DNA from: a virus
Length of the DNA: 47,126 nucleotides
Reading direction: 5' to 3' (one strand)
Virus record (IMG/VR): IMGVR_UViG_3300034418_011649
Coordinates: 1-47,126 of that record
Part shown: piece after piece, positions 1,186 to 38,483 of the stretch
Layout of the letters: the number at the start of each line of letters is the position of its first letter
Numbering within the stretch: position 1 is the first letter of the stretch
Position numbers and translations under genes: made by a program
Notes under the pieces: generated by a model
Database searches by the model: none
What the model was told of the DNA's origin: nothing
The model's input: the letters and a program-made list of their open reading frames with translations, nothing else

Positions 1186-1563
1186 TTACTTTTCTTTTTG
1201 ATATGAAAGAAGACCAATCTTATTTCCTAAAACTTTAGGTCCACTTTCAATATCACCCTCAAGGCTGTCAAAAAAAGTTTTAATGCTTTTTAAAGCATCA
1301 AATTTATCTTTATTAACTATTATTTCAATGCGTTCAGCTTTATCATTTTCAGAATAAGCAATAGCTGCTTTTGTAGGATCATTAGCAACTGTATCTCGAG
1401 CATTATTTGGGACAGACAATTGCCCTTTAAAGAGTTTTGAGTCTATACCCAGACCTTTTAATCTACCAACTAAATCAGGGCCAAAATCTCCTAAAGTTTT
1501 ATAATCTTCCTCTTTTAATAGCCTACCTTCTGCTATATATTTTTTTAAATCGAAATTTTCCAT
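1186..1563 (-). CDS. Protein with capsid-targeting-like leader
   Basis: 125 residues, family not recognised. The N-terminus MENFDLKKYIAEGRLLKE closely resembles in form the T4 internal-protein leader (a short amphipathic stretch ending FIAE before A). Here the candidate cut is IAE|G at residue 12. The same leader, with near-identical DNA, opens the gene at 3791-4231. The body is a soluble mixed alpha/beta sequence of about 110 residues (valine/isoleucine strands around residues 75-85) without Cys or a visible catalytic motif. I infer a packaged internal protein processed by the prohead protease. Confidence 0.75.
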   Translation of the reverse strand: MENFDLKKYIAEGRLLKEEDYKTLGDFGPDLVGRLKGLGIDSKLFKGQLSVPNNARDTVANDPTKAAIAYSENDKAERIEIIVNKDKFDALKSIKTFFDSLEGDIESGPKVLGNKIGLLSYQKEK

Positions 1564-1584: not shown

Positions 1585-2544
1585 TTATTTTAAAATCCCA
1601 GCTAAACGTTTCATTCTTTTCATTTCAAATAGATCTTCTTCTTTTACAACATACTGACGAGTAAAGAATGTAATAGTATTACCTATTTGGTTTATTAATT
1701 TTTCATCACCCTTTGCCCTAGCAGCTTCTAATGCTGATTCTAAATGGGTTAAAATATCTTGAGTATCTCCTTCTAATTCAGGAGCAATTTCTTCTTCAGT
1801 GTCGTCTACAGTTACTTCTTCTTCAGTATCATCTACAGTTACTTCTTCTTCGTCGCCTTTAGCTTCTTCTTCTTGTTCTTCTAAACCACGTTCACGACGT
1901 AAAGTTTCTTCATCATGATCCATTTGTTGTTGGGTTAACATATTTATGAATTCCGCTTTAGGATCTTCTGGGAGTGTATCGATTTCACCTCGTTTTACTT
2001 TTTCAAGGAAATATGCTTTAGCTTGATCATCTAAAGACATATCAAATTCAGAAAGAGCATCTTCTTGTAAAAATGCTTGACGAATCATTTCTTTTAATTC
2101 TGATTTTTTTATTTTATTTGATTTTGGAGCTTCTTGAGCTTCATCTATTGTAGTCATTGCATAGCCAAGCATTGCAGCTGCCATACCAATACCCGCTGTT
2201 ATAGCACCTACATCAGTACCACCAAATCCATGACCTGCAACAAATGCTGTTGGTAATCCTAGTCCTACTAAGACACCACCAATTTTCTTTATAAGGTTTT
2301 CATCTAATTGTTGTGATTCATCTAAACCACCTGAAATGATTTTACCAATTTCTTTAGCTTTATCTAAAGTAATATCTTCTTTGCTGTAGTTAGGGCCTAA
2401 TACCTTTTCAGCAGCTGCCTTCATTGATGCTTGTTCTTCAGGTGAAAACTTATTTAAAAGTTTTTTACCTACAGACATTAATTTATCCTTAATAGTATCA
2501 ATAATACCTTCGTTTAACATTTCTTTTGATTCAGATTTTTTCAT
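1585..2544 (-). CDS. Putative processed polyprotein with a glycine-rich membrane segment
   Basis: 319 residues. Candidate [L/I]-x-E sites split it: MLNE|G at 12, QLDE|N at 82, TIDE|A at 135, with weaker FLQE at 161 and LSE at 166. The piece 83-135 is hydrophobic and Gly/Ala-rich (VLVGLGLPTAFVAGHG, then AITAGIGMAAAMLGYAM), like a membrane-inserting helical hairpin. The second half is acidic, with a tandem repeat EEEVTVDDT at about 232-250, and it ends in FEMKRMKRLAGILK. A similar ending (FDRMTQLAGL) closes the product of 2863-3789. No enzyme motif is seen. A packaged protein with a membrane-active fragment is inference from layout. Confidence 0.7.
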   Translation of the reverse strand: MKKSESKEMLNEGIIDTIKDKLMSVGKKLLNKFSPEEQASMKAAAEKVLGPNYSKEDITLDKAKEIGKIISGGLDESQQLDENLIKKIGGVLVGLGLPTAFVAGHGFGGTDVGAITAGIGMAAAMLGYAMTTIDEAQEAPKSNKIKKSELKEMIRQAFLQEDALSEFDMSLDDQAKAYFLEKVKRGEIDTLPEDPKAEFINMLTQQQMDHDEETLRRERGLEEQEEEAKGDEEEVTVDDTEEEVTVDDTEEEIAPELEGDTQDILTHLESALEAARAKGDEKLINQIGNTITFFTRQYVVKEEDLFEMKRMKRLAGILK

Positions 2545-2569: not shown

Positions 2570-2863
2570 TTATTTCTTTAAACTATACGTTCCTTTTTTA
2601 TATTTTGCGGGTTTTGTGTTTTTAACAAACTGTTTTCCTTTTTTACTACCTTTAACTTTTTTAGCTACTGTAGCTTTTCTTTCTGCTTTAGTTAAAGATT
2701 GAGCTTTTTTTCTAGGTAAACATCTAGTAGTTGCTTTACCTTTTTTCATTGTACCACAAGGACCAGTAATATTGCCAGAAGTATTAATACGTACCCAATC
2801 TTCTTTTTTAAACCAATCGCGGAGTGATTCTTTTATTATTTCTTGTAGTCTTTCGTTTGTCAT
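2570..2863 (-). CDS. Small very basic protein, probable DNA-associated virion protein
   Basis: 97 residues. An N-terminal amphipathic helix (MTNERLQEIIKESLRDWF) is followed by a short domain reading WVRINTSGNITGPCGTM...RCLPRKKA, then a Lys-rich tail (KKVKGSKKGKQF, KYKKGTYSLKK). From memory, this pattern recurs in small proteins of marine T4-like phages; function unknown. The paired Cys in GPCGT and RCLP could bind metal or form a disulfide. IIKE|S at residue 12 is a possible leader cut. The start ATG overlaps the stop of the upstream gene by one base (TAATG), so the two are translationally coupled. Confidence 0.75.
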   Translation of the reverse strand: MTNERLQEIIKESLRDWFKKEDWVRINTSGNITGPCGTMKKGKATTRCLPRKKAQSLTKAERKATVAKKVKGSKKGKQFVKNTKPAKYKKGTYSLKK

Positions 2864-3789
2864 TACAATCCAGCTAATTGAGTCATTCTATCAAATTCAA
2901 TAGATTCTTTTTGAGGAAGTGGACAATAATTCCAAGCACCTTTAAATCCGTCTATTTCTTTATCTTTAGCTTCTTTTTCTTTAGCTTTAATATCTGCTGA
3001 GATTTTAGAGGCATCTTTAGCTTTAATAGCAGCACTGGTGCTACTAAAGATACCTTTATATAAGCTACCGTGGCCTAATTTTGCTAAAATAGCTTTGATT
3101 GGAGCTAACATTGCTATTAAACCTCCATATAATGCTTTACCACCAACTGCGGCTTGTTGAACACCAGTTCCGACAGCTGCACCTTTAGCAACCATAGCTG
3201 TGATTACTGGCCAAGCTGTTATGATTAATTTGATTACGAAGAATGCTATCAAAGCGATAATAATCCATTTATAAACAATTTTACCAGCTAACTCCATACA
3301 TTGTTTTTGTTCGTCACTTGGTCTGAAGGTTCTATAACGAATCATAGCAAACATTTTTGCGAAACCTTTATATGAGAAAGTATTATATACTTCTTTTATA
3401 AATTTTGTTACTGCTGATGCTCCATCTTTAGCTAGATCTTGAACTTTTTGGGGTACAAATTTATCTACTAGAGGAGCTAATTTTTCAGCTAATTTAGCCA
3501 GTATACCTTTAATCCATTCCGTAATATCTTTAACTATTTTAGTGCCTGTAAGGAAATCTTTTACACTACCCAGTACATTTAAAAATACCTTAACAATTCC
3601 TATGCCCTCATCTAATGGTTGTTTTTTTTCATCTACGAAGCCTTCTTTAAGAGCACTGTAGAATTCAAGATTGAGTTTCATTTCCTCTCTAATATCCCCA
3701 TTAGTTTTAGCTTCAGATAAAGTAACACCTTGGTGAGATTCCATCACCATTTTTACTACTGATTTTTGTTCTTCTCTTGTAAGTGTCAT
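2863..3789 (-). CDS. Putative processed membrane-active virion protein
   Basis: 308 residues from ATG 3789. An upstream ATG at 3852 is open, but it would overlap the previous gene by 62 bases, while 3789 sits one base after that gene's stop. Candidate cuts: TLSE|A at 26, LKE|G at 49, PLDE|G at 61. The segment after 61 is a series of amphipathic helices (IGIVKVFLNVLGSVKDF, WIKGILAKLAEKLAPLV). A strong transmembrane stretch follows at about 174-200 (WIIIALIAFFVIKLIITAW). The C-terminus FDRMTQLAGL matches the ending of the 1585-2544 product. Amphipathic helices plus a membrane anchor suggest membrane permeabilisation or DNA entry. That role is inference. Confidence 0.7.
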   Translation of the reverse strand: MTLTREEQKSVVKMVMESHQGVTLSEAKTNGDIREEMKLNLEFYSALKEGFVDEKKQPLDEGIGIVKVFLNVLGSVKDFLTGTKIVKDITEWIKGILAKLAEKLAPLVDKFVPQKVQDLAKDGASAVTKFIKEVYNTFSYKGFAKMFAMIRYRTFRPSDEQKQCMELAGKIVYKWIIIALIAFFVIKLIITAWPVITAMVAKGAAVGTGVQQAAVGGKALYGGLIAMLAPIKAILAKLGHGSLYKGIFSSTSAAIKAKDASKISADIKAKEKEAKDKEIDGFKGAWNYCPLPQKESIEFDRMTQLAGL

Positions 3790-3790
3790 T

Positions 3791-4231
3791 TTATTTATCT
3801 TCTTTTCTTTCTTGCCAATCATAAGATACACTATCTTCTGTGATAGGACCACCTTTAGCCCAAGTTCTACAAGTACGAGCTGAATGGCATTTAAAGTTAT
3901 GCATCCAACAGTAACCTAATCTACCACTATCATCTGAGACTTTACCAGGCATACATTCATCCATTCTAGGAGAAATATCAAAAGCAACACAATTACCACA
4001 TAGTGATGATTTAGCTGCTTTAACTGTTGTGTCCCAATATTCAGCTAATTCTTCCCAATAATCTCCTGGTTCATCTACATTTAATGGACCATATTTGATA
4101 TAATCAGCTTTAATTGAAGCATCTCGATTTTTAGTATTTACTTCTAAGTCTTGAGTTGCTATGGGGCAAGCCATTGCTGCTTCAAATAAGCGACCTTTAG
4201 CTAAATATTTTTTTAAATCGAAATTTTCCAT
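3791..4231 (-). CDS. Cys-rich protein with capsid-targeting-like leader
   Basis: 146 residues from ATG 4231, one base after the upstream stop. An in-frame ATG at 4384 is rejected because it lies deep inside the neighbour. The leader MENFDLKKYLAKGRLFE|A copies that of the gene at 1186-1563, with the possible cut at LFE 17. The body carries Cys 22, 78, 81, 93, 108, 115 and 121, in the pattern CGNC, ECMPG, GYCWMHNFKC, RTCRTWAKGGP. This Cys spacing suggests a metal or Fe-S site; similar small proteins occur, to my memory, in marine T4-like phages without known function. Confidence 0.75.
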   Translation of the reverse strand: MENFDLKKYLAKGRLFEAAMACPIATQDLEVNTKNRDASIKADYIKYGPLNVDEPGDYWEELAEYWDTTVKAAKSSLCGNCVAFDISPRMDECMPGKVSDDSGRLGYCWMHNFKCHSARTCRTWAKGGPITEDSVSYDWQERKEDK

Positions 4232-4239: not shown

Positions 4240-6197
4240 TTCTTTGATTTACGTTTTTTTCTTCCAGACATTTGTCCTTTACATACTTTAACTGCACGAC
4301 CTGATAAATAAGCAGATGATTTTTCTCCTGCTGCTTTACGTCTTTTAATATATGCCTTACCTTTAGGGCATAATTCTTCTTCAATTACACCTTCACCTAA
4401 TTTAATAGTTTCGGCTAATGTTTGAGCTATTGATTTTTTCTTCTCATCACTACTGTGGCCAAAAGTTTTGTGAACTAGTTTGTCTAGTTTTTTGTGAAAT
4501 TCGTTTTCTTCTTCTTTAGAAGCTTCTAATAAACCTTGATCTTCTAATTCTTTTTCTAGTTTTTTTCCTTTTTTTCTAATATCAGATAATTTTTTCCAAT
4601 TTGCATCTGTTTTATCCTTATTATATGCTTTTGTTAATTCATATTCTTTATCTAATAAAGCATTATATTCTTCTTTAGTAGCATTGTTTAGGTCAGCTTC
4701 ATTCAAGGATTCATTCATACCTTGAAATTTTTTATTTACTTCTTTTTCTTTCTCACTGTTAAAAGCCTTAAGTTTTTCAAATTGTTGTTGAGTAAAATTA
4801 TAATCACCCCAATTAATTGATTTTTCTGGTATCCATTGATCTTTAGGTACCCTAAAATGCTCCCAATATTTATAACCATCATATGGAATTAAATAATACC
4901 CCCCAATTGTAAATCCTTGTAAAACAAATTTTTCACCTTGTTTATTTGTTATAATAGGTCTTTTACCTGGGTTAAGAAATTCTTCATTTAATTGCTCTAA
5001 TTCACCAACTAACATATCATAATCGTCCATCTGGAGTATACCTTGTTGTTTAGTAGCGGCAATTGCTTTTTCAGTTAAATCGTGTAAATCCATATCTGCT
5101 TGAGCATCTTCTCTAGCATACTCTAAAACACGGATAAACAATGGAACATCCATTGTGATAATATCAATTTGGTCTTCGTTTTCTTCTTCTTCTGTAGCTT
5201 CATTCATACCTAATCGAGCGTGTAATACTTCCATAAATGGAGTAAAATTATGGGTACCATATTCATCAATGAGAATTGAAGCAACTGCATTCGCAAAATC
5301 TGTGTAGGACATTGAATCATCAATTTGAAGCATAGCTGAATTAATAGCATTAGCTAAGGATTGTGACTTAGTACTACCTAAACTAGCTTCAAATAAATCA
5401 TCTACACTAGCACCTTGAAGATATCGATTATATAAATATTTTGCGTCTTTTCTTACTCGTTCATCACTTGGATATTCATCAGGTGCTGCCCCAGCCATCA
5501 TATCGTCTCTAACCATTTGAACAAAATTATTGTAGGTTAGTTTTTTATCTTCGTTTACTGATTCAAAATGAGATGATTGTCTGCCGCCTTGGGGTTTAAT
5601 AGTATCTTCAGCACTTGCCTTAAGTTGGTTTACTGTACCATATACTCTACTTCCTGTCTCCCAGGTTTTACCTGTTTCAGCATCTATAAGTTCATATTTT
5701 GCTCTATCAGGCATTACTTTAACTAATCTAAAAATAATATCTCCATATCTTGAAGGTACTTCTTTAGGCCAATTTGTGGTATTTTCTTCTAAAGATATGT
5801 CTTTAATATCTACATGGGATAAAGGCACTTTGAATGTATCTGTAGTGGCCATAAAATCCTCACCAGTAGTACGAGAAACATATCTTAAGGGTTTTGTAGA
5901 TGTAGTTTTAAATGGAATGCCTTTTTGTTTTAAATAAGCTGCAAGTTTTTCTTTGTTTTCTTCATAATTTGGGGTGGGTGTACCATCATTCATATGAGAT
6001 GAAAAAGGGAATGAAATATGGTCTTTATATTTTCTTACATAATCTTGACCTTCTTTACCTGTGAGATAAAATTCTAGACCCGGGTTATCTTCTTTATATA
6101 AATCAGCAGTTTTATCTGTGGTATTATACATTCTAACCACTATATTTTCTTTTAAAGGTTTAGAGAAGAATTCTTGTATTTTTTTTAAATCTTCCAT
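4233..6197 (-). CDS. Second putative prohead-processed polyprotein (654 residues)
   Basis: Unrelated short segments are separated by [L/I/M/V]-x-E motifs: PLKE|N 17, SLEE|N 138, SVNE|D 216, LFE|A 270, GMNE|A 333, QLNE|E 405, GMNE|S 496, SLNE|A 500, LLE|A 558. Segment 18-138 is mixed alpha/beta, 139-216 is a small beta-type domain, and 217-270 and 271-333 are helical. 406-496 is aromatic-rich (YYLIPYDGYKYWEHF), 501-558 is a coiled coil, and 609-654 is a basic module (CPKGKAYIKRRKAAGEK, GRAVKVCKGQM, then a Lys/Arg tail). I recognise no catalytic motif. The last module looks nucleic-acid binding. The layout parallels 6992-10750, so packaging and cleavage are inferred. Confidence 0.75.
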   Translation of the reverse strand: MEDLKKIQEFFSKPLKENIVVRMYNTTDKTADLYKEDNPGLEFYLTGKEGQDYVRKYKDHISFPFSSHMNDGTPTPNYEENKEKLAAYLKQKGIPFKTTSTKPLRYVSRTTGEDFMATTDTFKVPLSHVDIKDISLEENTTNWPKEVPSRYGDIIFRLVKVMPDRAKYELIDAETGKTWETGSRVYGTVNQLKASAEDTIKPQGGRQSSHFESVNEDKKLTYNNFVQMVRDDMMAGAAPDEYPSDERVRKDAKYLYNRYLQGASVDDLFEASLGSTKSQSLANAINSAMLQIDDSMSYTDFANAVASILIDEYGTHNFTPFMEVLHARLGMNEATEEEENEDQIDIITMDVPLFIRVLEYAREDAQADMDLHDLTEKAIAATKQQGILQMDDYDMLVGELEQLNEEFLNPGKRPIITNKQGEKFVLQGFTIGGYYLIPYDGYKYWEHFRVPKDQWIPEKSINWGDYNFTQQQFEKLKAFNSEKEKEVNKKFQGMNESLNEADLNNATKEEYNALLDKEYELTKAYNKDKTDANWKKLSDIRKKGKKLEKELEDQGLLEASKEEENEFHKKLDKLVHKTFGHSSDEKKKSIAQTLAETIKLGEGVIEEELCPKGKAYIKRRKAAGEKSSAYLSGRAVKVCKGQMSGRKKRKSKKK

Positions 6198-6416: not shown

Positions 6417-6995
6417 TTAAGAAACTTTCATACTTTCAAGAAAAGTAATACCTTCCTCTAATCTTTTAACTAAATCTTCTTTATTAGTATTTTCTTTCCA
6501 AGTCTCTATATCACCATTTTCAGCAATGTATGATTGTGTATTACCCTCTAAGAAATCTTTAATCCATTTTTTATAATCTTCAATAATAGAATCAATTTCT
6601 TTATTCTTCATTTCTTTTTCATACTCTCCCCATCTCCCTTCAACACGGATTTGATGTTCCATATCAATAACACAGTTTAAACATTTTTTATGTATTTTGT
6701 AATACTGTTTATCAATATGGGGAGTCATTTTAGATTTACAAGAAGGACAAAACATTGGAAATAAATGTGCTTTTTTAGCTTTATCTAATTTAGTTACATT
6801 TTGTTTTAAACCATTTTCAATAGTCCAAGTTCTACCATCTTCTTCCCACACATCTCCTTCTTTATGAAACTCTTGTTTTTTAGAATAACCTACACCTTGA
6901 GTTGTTCTATCCCCAGCATTTCCTTTTACTAGGTTACGCATACGTTCTACATCTCGTTTACTAAACTCTTTTTTTAAAACATTATCTTTTTTCAT
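6417..6995 (-). CDS. Zinc-binding phage protein of unknown function
   Basis: 192 residues. After a basic N-terminus comes a segment FSKRDVERMRNLVKGNAGDR, then WEEDGRTWTIENGLKQNVTK. Two Cys pairs follow, C83/C86 and C105/C108 (CPSC, CLNC), about 18 residues apart, consistent with a zinc ribbon. The last 80 residues are helical and acidic. I recall similar proteins in marine T4-like phages, unnamed. The start overlaps the end of the upstream polyprotein gene by four bases (ATGA-type), so expression is coupled. No [L/I]-x-E leader is present, unlike its neighbours. Confidence 0.75.
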   Translation of the reverse strand: MKKDNVLKKEFSKRDVERMRNLVKGNAGDRTTQGVGYSKKQEFHKEGDVWEEDGRTWTIENGLKQNVTKLDKAKKAHLFPMFCPSCKSKMTPHIDKQYYKIHKKCLNCVIDMEHQIRVEGRWGEYEKEMKNKEIDSIIEDYKKWIKDFLEGNTQSYIAENGDIETWKENTNKEDLVKRLEEGITFLESMKVS

Positions 6996-9900
6996 AGATT
7001 CATAATCTTTTTTAACTCATCAATAACCTGATCTGTAGATTTAAATAAAATACCAATTCCACCAGCATCTTTCCACTGTTGAATATTTTTTTCTCTGTCA
7101 TCAATTAATATGTTAGATTTATCAGCATAATTTTGTTTGTTAACAGCGGCAGCTAATATTAATTGAGTTCCTGGGGTATTTTTCTTAGCCCATATTCTTT
7201 TACCTGTTTTAGAAGCATCATTTCTAGATGGAGCTGATAGTAATTTATGGTCAAATTGTTTAATAAAATTGTATAATTTTTTACCCTCGGGCATCCATTC
7301 TATACCTGTCCAAAATTTAACACCATGTTTATTATCAATAAAATCCCAGAATTTTTCAGTACCAAAAGAATCTTCATATTCTCTAGGACCCATACCTGCT
7401 AATTCTTTAAATCTTTTATCAAAATCAGCTATAACACCATCTAAATCTAGATAAATAGTAAATAATTCACTTGTATCTTCACTTAAGGGTCTAATCATTG
7501 CATCTTTAGTAGTAAAATCCTTATTTTTTCCTTTATTAGGAACAAAACCAAAACGTTTGTAAAACTTTTCTAATCTTGATTTAGAAGCTCCAAAAGTATC
7601 TGAAGGGGTTAGTGTTAATATTTTATTATTTTCTTGGGCATATTCGGATAAATCATCTAATATTTTAGTAGCCCACCCTTGTCCTTTATATTCAGGTTTA
7701 ATTTTAATTAAATTAAGTTCAATATAATTACCTTTTTCAAATAAAAAAAGTTTTTCTAATACTTCTGAGTATTTTTGTTTTAGTTGGTTTTCAATTTTTG
7801 AAGATTGGAACATTTCTTCCTTAACTTTTTCATACCCTGAACCATAAGGGGTAGCTTTACCATCATCTTTGGCACTAGGAACATTTTCATTTATAGGAAC
7901 TTGTCTTACGTTTTCTACATTAAAATTTTGAGGATAATTTTTATCAATACCACTTATTACTATATTATCATTCTTAGTAGTAATATCAAAAATAGAAGGA
8001 GATAAGTTAATATAATAATTTTTATAATATTCTAATTTTTCTTGGGGGTTTTGATTTTCACTTAAGTTTTCTTTACGTAAACGTTTAGTTTTTTCTTTAG
8101 ATGCTTCTTTACGAGATTCAATGTAATCTAAACCACGTTTTAATCTTGCTTTAGTTTCAGCATCCTTAGCATTTTGATATGCTGCTCTTACTCTTTGGTG
8201 GATTAAATTAATAATTTGAGATTGACGAGCATGGGGTTTGTTTTTAAAAGAAGTTTTGTTTAAAGTGTTAACTATATCTTCTTTAGTTCTAAATTCTATA
8301 CTTACAGTATCACTTGGGTCTTCATCTGTGTATAATCTACGGTCAGAACCTTTAGGTTTTTTACCTGTACCTTTTTTAGGGTCAGGTTTCTTTTTACGAC
8401 CTTCGTCTAATTCTTCTTCTAAACCTTGAGCTAATTCACGAGCATATTGACTTAAGCCAAATGGGTCGCTTACTTTATCGCTTGGGTTATTTGACTTTTT
8501 ATAGTCATCCATGTTTTTTTTAGCAATTTTTTGACCACTTTCTGCTAAAGTATTTGTTGGAATAGCTTTAAAAATATCTCCGGGTTTATTACTTTTTGTA
8601 GTCTCTATACCACTATTAGATAATACTATTTTTACAAAACTACCACAGTTTATAGCTTTTTTATTAGGATCTTTTATATCACAAGCAACGTTAGAAGGTA
8701 TTTCTATAGGTTTAGGTAATGATTTTTCTTTATATAAACCTTTCTTAATAGCCTCATTTTTATCTTTAGGCATTTGAAATAATTCTTCAGTATCCTCATA
8801 TTTGTATGTCATAGGAGGCATAGGTTGATCTTTATCATATCTATGACCACTCATATCTTTTAGCATACCATTATCTAATACAAAACCTATATGATCAAAA
8901 TCCCATCCTTTAGGAGTAAATGGGGATTTCATTACAAAAACTTTTGTTGCTTTTGAATTTTGATTTTCATTTAAATTATTATTTGTTTTAGATACTAAAA
9001 TAGCTTTAATTTTAGGAATACCTAATATTGTATGTACAGCATGTCTATGATTACCATCCAATATCTCCATAGTATCTTTATCTACTATAATAGGATAAAA
9101 ATCTTCTTTTCTTAGATCTTTAACTTCAATTTTACCTTCTATATATTTTTTATACTGTTCTGCTTCATATTCCGAAGAAGCATTTATATAATCCTCACCA
9201 AATTGAGTTGGTTTTACTTTATCTATTGGTAATATTTTTACAGTATAATCTTTTAAATTATATTTTTCTTTTTGAGGTAGGATAGATAGAGCTTTTTTAA
9301 CTAAATCTTGACCATACTCTTGAGCGAATTTTTCTTGGGGTAAAACATTTTCATTTAAACTATCAGTCCAATTTCTAAACGTCATTGTACCATTTAAGTT
9401 AGCCTCAGCTTCAATATCATTTAAATAATCGTCTTCTTGAGTATTTGTTGTTTGAATATCACCTAAACGACCATCTAAATTTTGTTCATGATGAACCATC
9501 TCATGGGAAAATGAGCGTACTATATCTTTAGGATGTCTGCCTTCAGTGTATAGCACGATGGTTTGGTTATTTGGGTTATAATACGCTGTTTTACCAAAGA
9601 AATCTCTAGCGTTTTCTGAATCACCATGTTTAAATATTACTTTAGGTAATGGTAAAATATTCCAACCATCCTTAATCATATATTTTGTTAATTCTTTAAT
9701 AAGAGATTTATAATCTATATCTGAGGAATATGAAGCATTTTCATTTAATTCTGATTTTTGTGGTAAATATGCAATTACAGCACTTGTTCCTATATCTCTA
9801 ATCCTAATTCCTGGGATTTGTTTTTGGAGAAAAATTTTATATAATTTATCTCTTTGATTTCCTATATCTCCTTCACCTGATTTTTTATGAGGAGAATATA

Positions 9901-10750
9901 AAATAAATTCTATTTCAGGGTCTTTGCTAAGGTGAGATTTAATTATATCAATAATAGTAGCCATTACCCTAAACAATTCTCCTTTACCAACCTCAATTTT
10001 AGAACTATATCCCTGCATTCCAGGGGTTTTAGCTAAAAATTCAACAGAGATGCCTATTTTATCCCCTTCAGGCATTTTTTCTAAAGAAACTATATATTTA
10101 ACATTATTATCTGTTGTAAAAAAATATTCACCAAAATCTTCTCTCCATTCATAAGGTTTGGAACTACCTTCTCCTACCTCATTTAATGTAGGTATTATAA
10201 TGTTATAAATTTCTTCTTTATCTGAATCTGAAAGTTGATTTGGGAGGAATTGGTAAAATGCTTCTTTAGATTGTTTTGCTGCCTCTCTTGCTTTTGTACC
10301 ACTAATACCCCCTACAGTATAAATAGGCTTTATTTCACCCCCATATTTTTGAAATAAATTAGATCTTTGTTCTACGTCTTTTTCATCTTCTTCATTACCT
10401 TCTCTAGCACCTATTAAAATATAAGTTTTGTCTTCAGGATGATCTTTTAAATAATCTTTTATCCAAGACATAGGGGAACCTGCTTCTATAATTTCAATAG
10501 TTTTAGGAATAAATTGTTTATATTTTTCCCAGATTTTAACAGATTGTTCTTGTGAAATACCATTTCTAACTCCACTACCTACAATAATATAAACTTGGTC
10601 AATTTCAGGATTATCTTGAATAGCTTTTAAAACTACCTCTAAATGACCTTTAGTAGGTGGTTTAAAACCTCCCCCAAATAAAGCAGTAACCACATCAGAT
10701 TCAGCCTCATTTAAAATGCTATCTACTAAAAATTGGGATAATTTACTCAT
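6992..10750 (-). CDS. Multi-enzyme virion polyprotein with LNE cleavage-like sites (1252 residues)
   Basis: The protein is nine segments joined end to end, each boundary marked by [L/I]-x-E: LNE 15, LNE 191, LNE 337, LNE 467, LNE 595, LDE 783, LSE 898, INE 955, LSE 1091. The next residue is usually N (five times), otherwise A, V, G or D. The first 15 residues (MSKLSQFLVDSILNE) form a leader like the T4 capsid-targeting sequence. Recognisable domains are nucleotidyltransferase, HExxH metallopeptidase, ParB-like, permuted cysteine peptidase, GNAT and HAD nucleotidase; each is listed separately. T4 gp21 prohead protease cuts after [L/I]-x-E, so packaging and cutting into mature enzymes is the inference. 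The gene overlaps both neighbours by four bases. No frameshift is seen. An uncleaved multidomain protein is the alternative. Confidence 0.85.
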   Translation of the reverse strand: MSKLSQFLVDSILNEAESDVVTALFGGGFKPPTKGHLEVVLKAIQDNPEIDQVYIIVGSGVRNGISQEQSVKIWEKYKQFIPKTIEIIEAGSPMSWIKDYLKDHPEDKTYILIGAREGNEEDEKDVEQRSNLFQKYGGEIKPIYTVGGISGTKAREAAKQSKEAFYQFLPNQLSDSDKEEIYNIIIPTLNEVGEGSSKPYEWREDFGEYFFTTDNNVKYIVSLEKMPEGDKIGISVEFLAKTPGMQGYSSKIEVGKGELFRVMATIIDIIKSHLSKDPEIEFILYSPHKKSGEGDIGNQRDKLYKIFLQKQIPGIRIRDIGTSAVIAYLPQKSELNENASYSSDIDYKSLIKELTKYMIKDGWNILPLPKVIFKHGDSENARDFFGKTAYYNPNNQTIVLYTEGRHPKDIVRSFSHEMVHHEQNLDGRLGDIQTTNTQEDDYLNDIEAEANLNGTMTFRNWTDSLNENVLPQEKFAQEYGQDLVKKALSILPQKEKYNLKDYTVKILPIDKVKPTQFGEDYINASSEYEAEQYKKYIEGKIEVKDLRKEDFYPIIVDKDTMEILDGNHRHAVHTILGIPKIKAILVSKTNNNLNENQNSKATKVFVMKSPFTPKGWDFDHIGFVLDNGMLKDMSGHRYDKDQPMPPMTYKYEDTEELFQMPKDKNEAIKKGLYKEKSLPKPIEIPSNVACDIKDPNKKAINCGSFVKIVLSNSGIETTKSNKPGDIFKAIPTNTLAESGQKIAKKNMDDYKKSNNPSDKVSDPFGLSQYARELAQGLEEELDEGRKKKPDPKKGTGKKPKGSDRRLYTDEDPSDTVSIEFRTKEDIVNTLNKTSFKNKPHARQSQIINLIHQRVRAAYQNAKDAETKARLKRGLDYIESRKEASKEKTKRLRKENLSENQNPQEKLEYYKNYYINLSPSIFDITTKNDNIVISGIDKNYPQNFNVENVRQVPINENVPSAKDDGKATPYGSGYEKVKEEMFQSSKIENQLKQKYSEVLEKLFLFEKGNYIELNLIKIKPEYKGQGWATKILDDLSEYAQENNKILTLTPSDTFGASKSRLEKFYKRFGFVPNKGKNKDFTTKDAMIRPLSEDTSELFTIYLDLDGVIADFDKRFKELAGMGPREYEDSFGTEKFWDFIDNKHGVKFWTGIEWMPEGKKLYNFIKQFDHKLLSAPSRNDASKTGKRIWAKKNTPGTQLILAAAVNKQNYADKSNILIDDREKNIQQWKDAGGIGILFKSTDQVIDELKKIMNL
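6995..7477 (-). other. Predicted mature chain 9 (residues 1092-1252): HAD-family 5'(3')-nucleotidase-like phosphatase
   Basis: YLDLDGVIADFDKRF carries HAD motif I (D-x-D-G-V). LLSAPS at 1170-1175 fits motif II, KTGKRIWAKK motif III, and ILIDDREKNI at 1214-1223 motif IV. The DLDGVxxDF form is typical of small nucleotidases acting on deoxynucleotides. Confidence 0.75.
7478..7885 (-). other. Predicted mature chain 8 (residues 956-1091): GNAT acetyltransferase
   Basis: LNLIKIKPEYKGQGWATKIL at 1012-1031 is GNAT motif A with the pyrophosphate-binding loop QGWA. FYKRFGFVPN at 1063-1072 is the typical GNAT C-terminal motif. Acetyl acceptor unknown. Confidence 0.75.
7886..8056 (-). other. Predicted short chain 7 (residues 899-955)
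   Basis: 57 residues between LSE 898 and INE 955, with a helix (QEKLEYYKNYYINL) and a short strand pair. Too short to classify; it may be a linker. Confidence 0.4.
8057..8401 (-). other. Predicted mature chain 6 (residues 784-898): basic helical domain
   Basis: Begins GRKKKPDPKKGTGKKPKGS and is followed by RRLYTDEDPSDTVSIEF and long Lys/Arg-rich helices up to KTKRLRKENLSE. It is a probable nucleic-acid-binding or packing peptide; no family named. Confidence 0.5.
8402..8965 (-). other. Predicted mature chain 5 (residues 596-783): permuted papain-like cysteine peptidase/amidase
   Basis: DHIGFVLDNG (His 620) precedes NCGSFVKIVL (Cys 702). His before Cys is the circularly permuted order seen in YiiX/LRAT-type members of the NlpC/P60 superfamily. 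An internal TLAE|S at 737 may be a further cut. Peptidase, amidase and acyltransferase roles are all possible. Confidence 0.5.
8966..9349 (-). other. Predicted mature chain 4 (residues 468-595): ParB/sulfiredoxin-like domain
   Basis: Reads YPIIVDKDTMEILDGNHRH at about 552-570, the DGNHR box of the ParB/sulfiredoxin fold, followed by an LGIPKIKAILV strand. Members bind or hydrolyse nucleotides or DNA. The exact activity here is open. Confidence 0.65.
9350..9739 (-). other. Predicted mature chain 3 (residues 338-467): HExxH metallopeptidase-like
   Basis: HEMVH at 416-420 is the zinc-binding, catalytic HExxH motif, and a downstream acidic helix DIEAEAN at 445-451 could give the third, gluzincin-type ligand. 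The chain is short (130 residues), like minimal zincins. The target is unknown. Confidence 0.65.
9740..10177 (-). other. Predicted mature chain 2 (residues 192-337): unknown domain
   Basis: An alpha/beta domain of about 146 residues opening with GEGSSKPYEW. It carries EFILYSPHKKSGEGD and NQRDKLYKIFLQKQIPG near 281-314. It is flanked by LNE on both sides. I recall similar text in phage proteins but no assigned function. Confidence 0.55.
10178..10705 (-). other. Predicted mature chain 1 (residues 16-191): nucleotidyltransferase
   Basis: Reads TALFGGGFKPPTKGHLEVV at 22-40, the nucleotide-binding motif with GH of the cytidylyltransferase/NMNAT superfamily. It ends with ISGTKAR near residues 149-155, the matching C-terminal ISxTxxR motif. 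The substrate cannot be told from sequence; NAD or coenzyme precursors are typical for the superfamily. Confidence 0.75.
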
Positions 10751-11712
10751 TTTAAAAAAGAATTAAATTTAGATTTAATGTCTTCTTCAGAATTAGGTTC
10801 AGTAATTTCTTTAAATTGAGGGGAAGTTAATTTATTTACTATACCTTCTAAATCTTCATTATAGTTTTGTTCCCTTTTTTCTTTACTTTTCCTTTTAGCT
10901 TGAACTCTTTTTTCTAGTAATTCAGAACCTGGATCTTCATTCTTTTTTAAATAATCCTTTTGGAATTCTTTTTTAACATCTTTTAAAATGCCACTATCTT
11001 TTTTTTCATCAAATGATGTTTCTGGTAGGGCATTATTAAATGCCTGTTCAATTTCTTTGTTTTCAAATTTAAATTCTTTTGAGAAAGATGATTTAAATTG
11101 TTCAGCATTGTCTGAAATTAAATTTTCTAGGTATTGTTTTAAACTATCTTTACCCCCAGCTACAGCTTTATCAAATTCTTGAACTTGTTTTTCATATCCC
11201 GGAATAATATTTTTAATTAAAACAAAATTATTACCAAATAATTTTTTATACTCCTCTATATTACTATAAACCCCATCCCAGGTTTTAATAGCAGCATCCA
11301 TAGGTAATGTTCTTTCCCTTTTAGCATTTTGAAATAATGAAATTATAGGATGGGTATAAACCATAACCATAAATTTATCATATCCTGGCATTTCAGCCAT
11401 TGTATTTTTAATATTGGCTGCTGTGGTATCCCAAATTATATTTTCTTTTTCATTTTGAGTATTTTGAAATATTTCTTTAAATTTCCCCATTGCGGCCCCT
11501 AAAGAAGTTCCTTCTTTTTCTACAATATCATCGGGGTTCATATATTTAAACTTTAAATTTGAACCTTTAGGGGTAAAAATTCCAGTTTTTTCATCTAAAT
11601 TACCTAGTAATTTTTTAACAGCATATGTTTTACCAACACCTGCCCCTCCAGCTAATATTATTCCTTTAGGAATACCCTCAGCCTCTAAAATTAATTTCAT
11701 TAATGATATCAT
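10747..11712 (-). CDS. P-loop kinase (zeta-toxin/polynucleotide-kinase-like) with processing leader
   Basis: 321 residues. Walker A GGAGVGKT is at 22-29 and a strand with Asp (NIIWDTTAAN) at 91-100, the layout of zeta-toxin/AAA-type small-molecule or polynucleotide kinases. The C-terminal third is Lys/Glu-rich and probably extended. The N-terminus MISLMKLILE|AEG ends in L-x-E before A, like the capsid-targeting leaders of its neighbours, so it may be packaged too. Translation could also start at the second Met (11700). The end overlaps the polyprotein start by four bases. Substrate unknown. Confidence 0.7.
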   Translation of the reverse strand: MISLMKLILEAEGIPKGIILAGGAGVGKTYAVKKLLGNLDEKTGIFTPKGSNLKFKYMNPDDIVEKEGTSLGAAMGKFKEIFQNTQNEKENIIWDTTAANIKNTMAEMPGYDKFMVMVYTHPIISLFQNAKRERTLPMDAAIKTWDGVYSNIEEYKKLFGNNFVLIKNIIPGYEKQVQEFDKAVAGGKDSLKQYLENLISDNAEQFKSSFSKEFKFENKEIEQAFNNALPETSFDEKKDSGILKDVKKEFQKDYLKKNEDPGSELLEKRVQAKRKSKEKREQNYNEDLEGIVNKLTSPQFKEITEPNSEEDIKSKFNSFLK

Positions 11713-38383: not shown

Positions 38384-38398
38384 ATTTTAAAACATTAG

Positions 38399-38483
38399 TA
38401 CCGAGAGCGGGACTTGAACCCGCACGACTGTAATAGTCAAGGGATTTTAAGTCCCTCGTGTCTACCAATTCCACCACCTCGGC
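38399..38483 (-). tRNA. tRNA-Leu (anticodon TAA)
   Basis: 85 bases on the minus strand. Acceptor GCCGAGG pairs with TCTCGGT (two G-T wobbles), with discriminator A at 38399 and no encoded CCA. The D-loop reads GGAATTGGTAGAC. The anticodon stem GAGGGA/TCCCTT holds loop CTTAAAA, anticodon TAA, reading UUA. A class II variable arm (GACTATTACAGTC) and GGGTTCAAGTCCC T-arm follow. UUA should be the dominant Leu codon in this A/T-rich genome, so the tRNA probably supports late translation. Confidence 0.95.

Follow-up and report, generated by a model that had tools for sequence, protein, structure and literature searches.

In a 47-kb virus record of IMG/VR (IMGVR_UViG_3300034418_011649; 47,126 nucleotides, all of which were analyzed and are called the window here), a fragment with tail genes and without head genes, we describe a 1,252-residue protein composed of unrelated modules bordered by short sites of the form [LIVM]xE. 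We consider it quite likely that this protein is a polyprotein which a T4-type phage targets to its capsid and which the prohead protease gp21 cuts in trans, with products that are probably injected. Judged from its sequence, it is a member of a family of mix-and-match polyproteins. A first-pass annotation of the window had noted [L/I]-x-E at the domain borders and had read the gene as bringing a set of enzymes into the capsid, to be matured there and injected. The observation is confirmed as a whole; the interpretation is supported and survived the checks for motifs in homologs and for gp21, cleavage, packaging, and injection being what we infer. The open reading frame (ORF) claimed at 6992-10750 is real and located on the minus strand, with an ATG start and no internal stops; a plus-strand reading was rejected because of its many stops.

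All sites listed in that annotation (LNE ending at residues 15, 191, 337, 467, and 595, LDE at 783, LSE at 898 and 1091, and INE at 955) are correct, but the border site LAE-737 had been missed, and there are three LSE rather than two, those at 898 and 1091 at borders and the third (1036) within the GNAT domain. [L/I]-x-E is indeed present in all eight interdomain gaps. LNE occurs 5 times versus 0.45 expected upon shuffling (P = 1.5e-4), always in the gaps, to which 20% of the residues belong (P = 3e-4). Altogether, [LI]xE occurs 17 times, with 11 occurrences in gaps (P = 7e-5). The decoys [LI]xD, [LI]xK, E-x-[LI], and [VFYMA]xE were not enriched in the window protein, and [LI]xQ reached just P = 0.04. 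Domain-core limits were set by us from hidden Markov model and BLAST matches, those of core 600-733 being taken from its own sites, without independent support. The remark that Asn usually follows holds for five of nine sites in this protein, but across the family P1' takes G, L, V, A, or N, and Asn was rejected as a site component.

For comparison, we used 62 distinct IMG/VR relatives found in a scan, Flavobacterium phage immuto, and one contig of a Winogradskyella metagenome-assembled genome (MAG); 45 proteins left after dereplication entered an all-against-all comparison. Raw [LI]xE counts showed no family-wide excess (454 versus 438 expected), and raw counting was dropped because the signal sits solely in LNE, INE, and VNE and in position. 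We defined homology edges as points in the interior of both proteins at which homology ends, each backed by three or more pairs; [LIV]xE was near 61% of the start edges and 64% of the end edges, compared with 24% of random positions. The decoys [LI]xD, [LI]xK, [LI]xQ, and [FYMA]xE remained at or under chance, and E-x-[LI] was slightly above it. In a motif-free version of the test, E at the last aligned residue was most enriched at end edges (57 versus 17.9 expected), and two positions ahead of it stood a hydrophobic residue.

Single-linkage clustering of modules merged families via fusion proteins, which is why we rely on border tables; these also weigh more than the edge statistics, since kinship among the sequences inflates edge scores. 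A basic module (A/GDPKKGTGKKP...) follows different upstream modules with 28 distinct 16-residue flanks, 27 of which have hydrophobic-x-E right at the border; the remaining one (L004) has LEE five residues upstream. Module 192-337 is preceded by 14 distinct flanks and the second zincin by nine, and every one of them ends in [LIV]xE. The first zincin provides a natural experiment, in which the presence of the site depends on a following module. As the terminal module it ends in RNW[TE]DxIKNV or alike, with a site in 0 of 30 cases, whereas 14 of the 19 distinct copies with a module after them have a site at most 16 residues away; in the other five, read by eye from the printed sequence, it lies within about 25 residues. 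Across relatives, P3 (L/I/V/M), P2 (N/K/E/Q/T/D), and the codons of the joints vary while P1 is constantly E, and therefore the constraint acts at the protein level. Thus, the concern that homologs might lack the motif at their linkers is not borne out; [LIVM]xE is found at their module borders much more often than expected by chance, and, as in a polyprotein, predicted protease sites at product joins are kept in relatives.

The putative leader of the window polyprotein comprises 15 residues ending in LNE, and its earlier comparison to T4 capsid-targeting leaders is supported. In T4, gp21 cuts after L/I-X-E, and such propeptides are 10 to 19 residues long (PMC9026906). Leaders of relatives read M-x-x-L-T-K-x-L...L-L and end in or contain [LIV]xE; by our reading, 41 of 44 relatives with a visible start have a comparable one. 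In a second polyprotein, encoded in the same block of genes (Table 1), a strongly conserved leader precedes unrelated sequence. Among 27 relatives with 23 distinct starts, mean identity is 77% over residues 1 to 17 and 9% over the next 20 (18 to 37). The leader follows the pattern M[KE]D[IL]xKI[KQ]EFFSKP[LMIV]xE and ends in 26 of the 27 in LEE, MNE, LNE, INE, LKE, VNE, MKE, LDE, LQE, LGE, or IEE, with E alone fixed. This resembles T4 internal proteins, in which a conserved capsid-targeting sequence stands ahead of diverse mature parts (PMC3012670, PMC9026906). Sites in this second family were found at 73 to 79% of homology ends, compared with 40% of random positions; at starts, the signal was weaker. 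The second polyprotein is unrelated to the first. In immuto, gp079 (841 amino acids; L002 15048-17573 = NC_055915.1 114006-116531) contains four LNE, two MNE, one VNE, and further sites and is possibly its counterpart.

NT5C, the last module of the window polyprotein, is a separate gene with its own leader in most relatives. Stand-alone NT5C genes adjoining the polyprotein start with MANLFDLYKLIKE followed by ND and alike, and the fused NT5C is preceded by LSE followed by D. Leader-type starts are also found in the NT5C genes of Melnitz and HTVC008M, and that of Caulobacter phage Cr30, adjoining ribonucleotide reductase genes, starts at the domain with neither leader nor site.

A protease of the T4 gp21 type (Peptidase_S77) was detected in nine of 20 records searched, namely, in all seven over 120 kb and in two shorter fragments, and gp23 was present in all nine; the gp21 homolog of immuto is gp070. 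In the initial parts of the nine gp23 sequences, the position which we assign by homology to the T4 maturation cut is occupied by QLV-x-E, or by QIVSE in immuto, and the next residue is A, N, S, T, or F. V at P3 in gp23 matches V or M at some joins, so the site family appears to be slightly wider than in T4. In immuto, the polyprotein gene is located between tail genes and the terminase, portal, gp21, and gp23 genes; in the window, it adjoins tail genes.

Of the six recognizable, unrelated folds claimed earlier, five are supported, two of them by weak matches, and the sixth is not. The matches are to a HIGH-type adenylyltransferase (residues 22-155, best E 2e-4), a HExxH zincin (351-465, matched weakly via a relative), a ParB-like domain (546-590, E 0.005), GNAT (1005-1087, E 4.9e-6), and the NT5C nucleotidase (1097-1249, E 1.9e-23). 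A relative's zincin matched the Pfam model MPTase-PolyVal with E = 0.079, short of the model cutoff, and a phmmer search of the whole protein against PDB returned low-quality designed-repeat matches only. Module 192-337 gave a good structure model (predicted local distance difference test [pLDDT], 84), yet no PDB match at E <= 0.001; the best structural matches, to GNAT-like and RNase E domains, were weak (template modeling score of about 0.4). Piece 596-737 had no match in Pfam, PDB, or phages and no IMG/VR relative, the model of residues 596-898 was poor (mean pLDDT, 58), and a papain/LRAT-like identity of this piece based on its H...NC motif was not confirmed. Other cassettes in relatives include a HYD1-type ADP-ribosyltransferase (ART)-like domain and a zinc ribbon of ~41 residues (both L027), an M78/IrrE-like metallopeptidase (L031, L055), and the second zincin (L053).

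Sequence and comparison establish the architecture, the border sites and their dependence on a following module, the fusion of conserved leaders with unrelated sequence, and the presence of gp21 and gp23 in relatives. With somewhat less assurance than for the single protein, we think it probable that each genome of these T4-type phages encodes two modular polyproteins, whose swappable enzyme cassettes, with a capsid-protease site at the end of each, are packaged as one chain and freed in the prohead by gp21. By analogy with T4, from which we derive targeting, cleavage, and retention, the leader would carry the chain into the prohead core, where a gp21-type protease encoded elsewhere in the genome would recognize [L/I/V/M]-x-E both in the leader and in every linker and cut behind its E; sites within folded domains would be shielded. 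About ten folded pieces of roughly 5 to 20 kDa would be freed, including a nicotinamide mononucleotide (NMN)-adenylyltransferase-like enzyme, the zincin, the ParB-like domain, GNAT, and the 5'-nucleotidase, and would be kept in the head. Injection and host-directed function lie a step further beyond the T4 analogy: the retained pieces would be ejected with the DNA, like T4 Alt and the internal proteins, and would act in the new host ahead of any phage gene expression. One may speculate that the NMN-adenylyltransferase-like piece restores NAD+ (oxidized nicotinamide adenine dinucleotide) against NAD-depleting defenses, a phage strategy that has been discussed (PMC9503650).

The main rival to cleavage by gp21 is self-processing, because it is a published proposal for polyvalent proteins, for which processing in cis by an embedded zincin or a C-terminal assemblin-like peptidase was put forward (PMC5512222). 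The zincin would then cut its own chain, in the head or after injection, with [LIVM]xE as its recognition site or a by-product. The window protein has HEMVHH, a zincin is found in nearly all members, HExxH is missing from one dereplicated polyprotein-1 ORF only, and Iyer et al. proposed autoproteolysis by MPTase with P1 DdrB as the example (PMC5512222). However, HExxH is absent from all 32 dereplicated members of the second family, which nevertheless show site-bounded modules of the same kind, and the same motif ends leaders of non-zincin proteins and occupies the gp23 maturation position, a gp21 site in T4. Zincins with such a residue preference are not known to us. Self-processing appears unlikely. 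We also regard it as improbable that one uncut multidomain polyvalent effector is packaged, with [LIVM]xE representing flexible linkers or recombination joints that favor module exchange. N4 virion RNA polymerase and plasmid ArdC/TraC1 do travel unprocessed (PMC5512222), and LNE is mostly coded by TTAAATGAA (39/58), a possible short homology; but codons, P3, and P2 vary at the joints while P1 is E, decoys are flat, the site is gone when the zincin is terminal, and E is also the one constant residue in the leader-end site of polyprotein 2, where P3 and P2 vary.

The protein might also not be virion cargo at all but a multifunctional enzyme with an ordinary role inside the cell, or a core protein resembling a scaffold, which gp21 would shred and which would not stay in the head. 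T4 gp21 cuts gp22 and gp67 to fragments which mostly leave the head (PMC9026906), and the immuto copy is without a clear leader. Nevertheless, the modules retain enzyme motifs and vary between phages, as expected of delivered cargo but not of scaffold, the genes adjoin head genes together with a block of leader-bearing genes, and the GNAT module is common to DarB-like proteins, of which P1 DarB is packaged in the virion (PMC9024508). We give this explanation very little weight.

Several points weigh against the capsid-targeted, gp21-cut polyprotein that we favor. Neither gp21 nor gp23 was found in the 47-kb window, a fragment without head genes, so that the phage's own protease is unseen and the earlier check for a gp21-type protease came out positive in relatives only. 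No site lies near about one-third of the homology edges, and [LIVM]xE is a short motif, with 6 of the 17 [LI]xE located inside folded domains. The immuto polyprotein without a clear leader is gp088, and contigs L006, L007, and L012 begin directly at the adenylyltransferase. ORFs with [LIVM]xE ending at residue 8 to 20 speak for the proposal by their concentration in the 30-kb regions that contain polyprotein and head genes (60/103 versus 95/418 elsewhere in immuto, G017, and G009; P = 1e-11), but these regions were picked after the gene map had been seen. Finally, the relatives were retrieved via window-derived patterns and are mutually nonindependent, and z-scores overstate significance.

The first-pass annotation knew of no described phage polyprotein of this kind. 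This is partly right; it overlooked the polyvalent proteins (Iyer et al. 2017, PMC5512222) as the closest prior art. Like the window protein, these are single phage-encoded chains of unrelated domains in shuffled order, predicted to be delivered with the DNA, and they share zincin, ParB-like, GNAT, ART-like, and nucleotide metabolism domains with the family described here. Polyvalent proteins combine 2 to 15 disparate domains per polypeptide, and the window protein combines a nucleotidyltransferase, a zincin, a ParB-like domain, GNAT, and NT5C (two matches weak); their location with late or packaging genes is seen here as well, with tail genes in the window and head and tail genes in immuto. 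Unlike polyvalent proteins, the window protein has a short repeated site matching a trans-acting capsid protease at its borders, plus a T4-type leader, and term searches of PMC5512222 found no mention of such repeated border sites. T4 IPI-III and Alt (PMC9026906, PMC3012670) share the short N-terminal propeptide ending in L/I-x-E and, with the relatives examined here, T4-type capsid genes and gp21 in the genome, but they yield one mature effector per gene by one N-terminal cut (in Alt also a C-terminal one), whereas here many modules have a site at each join. P1 DarB, a large anti-restriction protein that is packaged in the head and has an N-terminal signal for this (PMC9024508), is also comparable to the window polyprotein. 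A DarB-like protein of phage Parlo has a related GNAT domain (40% identity); unlike the window polyprotein, it shows one [LIVM]NE in 3,068 residues read and no series of sites around GNAT. In SPN3US gp245, as proposed here, several cuts per protein are made by the capsid protease at a short E-terminated motif, and ejected proteins are among the substrates, but these giant-phage cuts remove propeptides of single proteins and do not separate unrelated enzymes (PMC10052503). The polyproteins of eukaryotic RNA viruses, to which PMC5512222 had already pointed as an analogy, also hold several proteins in one chain with viral-protease sites at the joins, but there is no common descent, modules here are swapped between phages, and the proposed cleavage is inside the capsid. 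No phage polyprotein cut by a prohead protease was found in the open literature searched, most subscription journals lying outside it. Thus, the parts, polyvalent effectors and T4-type capsid-targeted proteins, are known, and new, as not found in that literature, is their combination in a cassette-built polyprotein punctuated by predicted capsid-protease sites.

If this is true, the capsid maturation protease gains a second job, namely, to split one packaged chain into a set of individual enzymes. Such a trans-processed bacteriophage effector polyprotein would explain how many effectors are packaged in a fixed ratio through one targeting signal and why genes are freely shuffled, as any cassette with a hydrophobic-x-E end would work, and would represent a general way of cargo loading that evolves by cassette exchange at protease sites. 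Leaders and sites together would provide a simple sequence rule to predict which proteins of marine T4-type phages, now mostly "hypothetical," enter the cell with the DNA. The system is testable now because a cultured relative, immuto (vB_FspM_immuto_2-6A, on Flavobacterium sp. LMO8), exists; a paper on Baltic Flavobacterium phages, consulted for immuto virion proteomics, does not mention this phage.

Table 1. Features of the window, with the pieces of the 1,252-residue polyprotein in N- to C-terminal order
Feature	Position	Strand	Remarks
Polyprotein gene, 1,252 amino acids	6992..10750	minus	
Residues 1-15, MSKLSQFLVDSILNE	10706..10750	minus	putative capsid-targeting leader ending in site (LNE-15)
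Residues 16-191, HIGH-superfamily nucleotidyltransferase (NMNAT/CoaD-like)	10178..10705	minus	TKGH and ISGTKAR motifs; ends LNE-191
Residues 192-337, alpha/beta module	9740..10177	minus	weak DUF6934 match via a relative; ends LNE-337
Residues 338-467, zincin-like metallopeptidase	9350..9739	minus	HEMVHH; ends LNE-467
Residues 468-595, ParB-like domain	8966..9349	minus	DGNHRHAVH; ends LNE-595
Residues 596-737, module with H...NC motif	8540..8965	minus	ends LAE-737
Residues 738-783, short module	8402..8539	minus	leader-like DPFGLSQYAREL helix; ends LDE-783
Residues 784-898, basic helical module	8057..8401	minus	65-83% identity to relatives; ends LSE-898
Residues 899-955, short module	7886..8056	minus	ends INE-955
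Residues 956-1091, GNAT acetyltransferase	7478..7885	minus	kin to DarB-like virion protein domains; ends LSE-1091
Residues 1092-1252 and stop, NT5C 5'(3')-deoxyribonucleotidase	6992..7477	minus	DLDGV
Second polyprotein, 654 amino acids	4233..6197	minus	leader MEDLKKIQEFFSKPLKE (6147-6197); 18 [LIVM]xE sites; no HExxH
P-loop kinase-like gene directly upstream of polyprotein	10747..11712	minus	leader MISLMKLILE
Leader-bearing gene of the same island	1186..1563	minus	MENFDLKKYIAE
Leader-bearing gene	1585..2544	minus	MKKSESKEMLNE; C terminus RMKRLAGILK, scaffold-C-terminus-like
Small basic protein	2570..2863	minus	leader-like start MTNERLQEIIKE
Gene with scaffold-like C-terminal tag	2863..3852	minus	EFDRMTQLAGL
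tRNA-Leu (TAA) gene	38398-38483	minus	in phage contig

The product of the P-loop kinase-like gene may be a further packaged enzyme; its Winogradskyella homolog (L127:4204) starts with MISLAQLLNE. In each of the eight head regions read (L083, L079, L077, L075, L076, L078, L080, and L082), [FV]-x-R-[WM]-Q-x-L-A-G-I forms the C terminus of the protein encoded in scaffold position before gp23. The same string also serves as leader of other genes (SEEFQRMQKLAGIITE; RMQKLAGIITE), and close variants end the window genes at 1585-2544 and 2863-3852. It is possibly a prohead-core binding tag.

An internal segment resembling an N-terminal leader (DPFGLNxxAREL...) recurs in the short module 738-783 and in many relatives, often directly before the zincin, and is perhaps a leftover leader from the fusion of formerly separate packaged proteins.

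The phage, a marine one, is of the T4 type, and its host probably belongs to the Flavobacteria. The Winogradskyella MAG contig L127 (JABDKL010000076.1), which was found later and stands outside the tests, holds a relative of the locus with the same arrangement, including NT5C fused at the end, and hints at a host in the Flavobacteriaceae.

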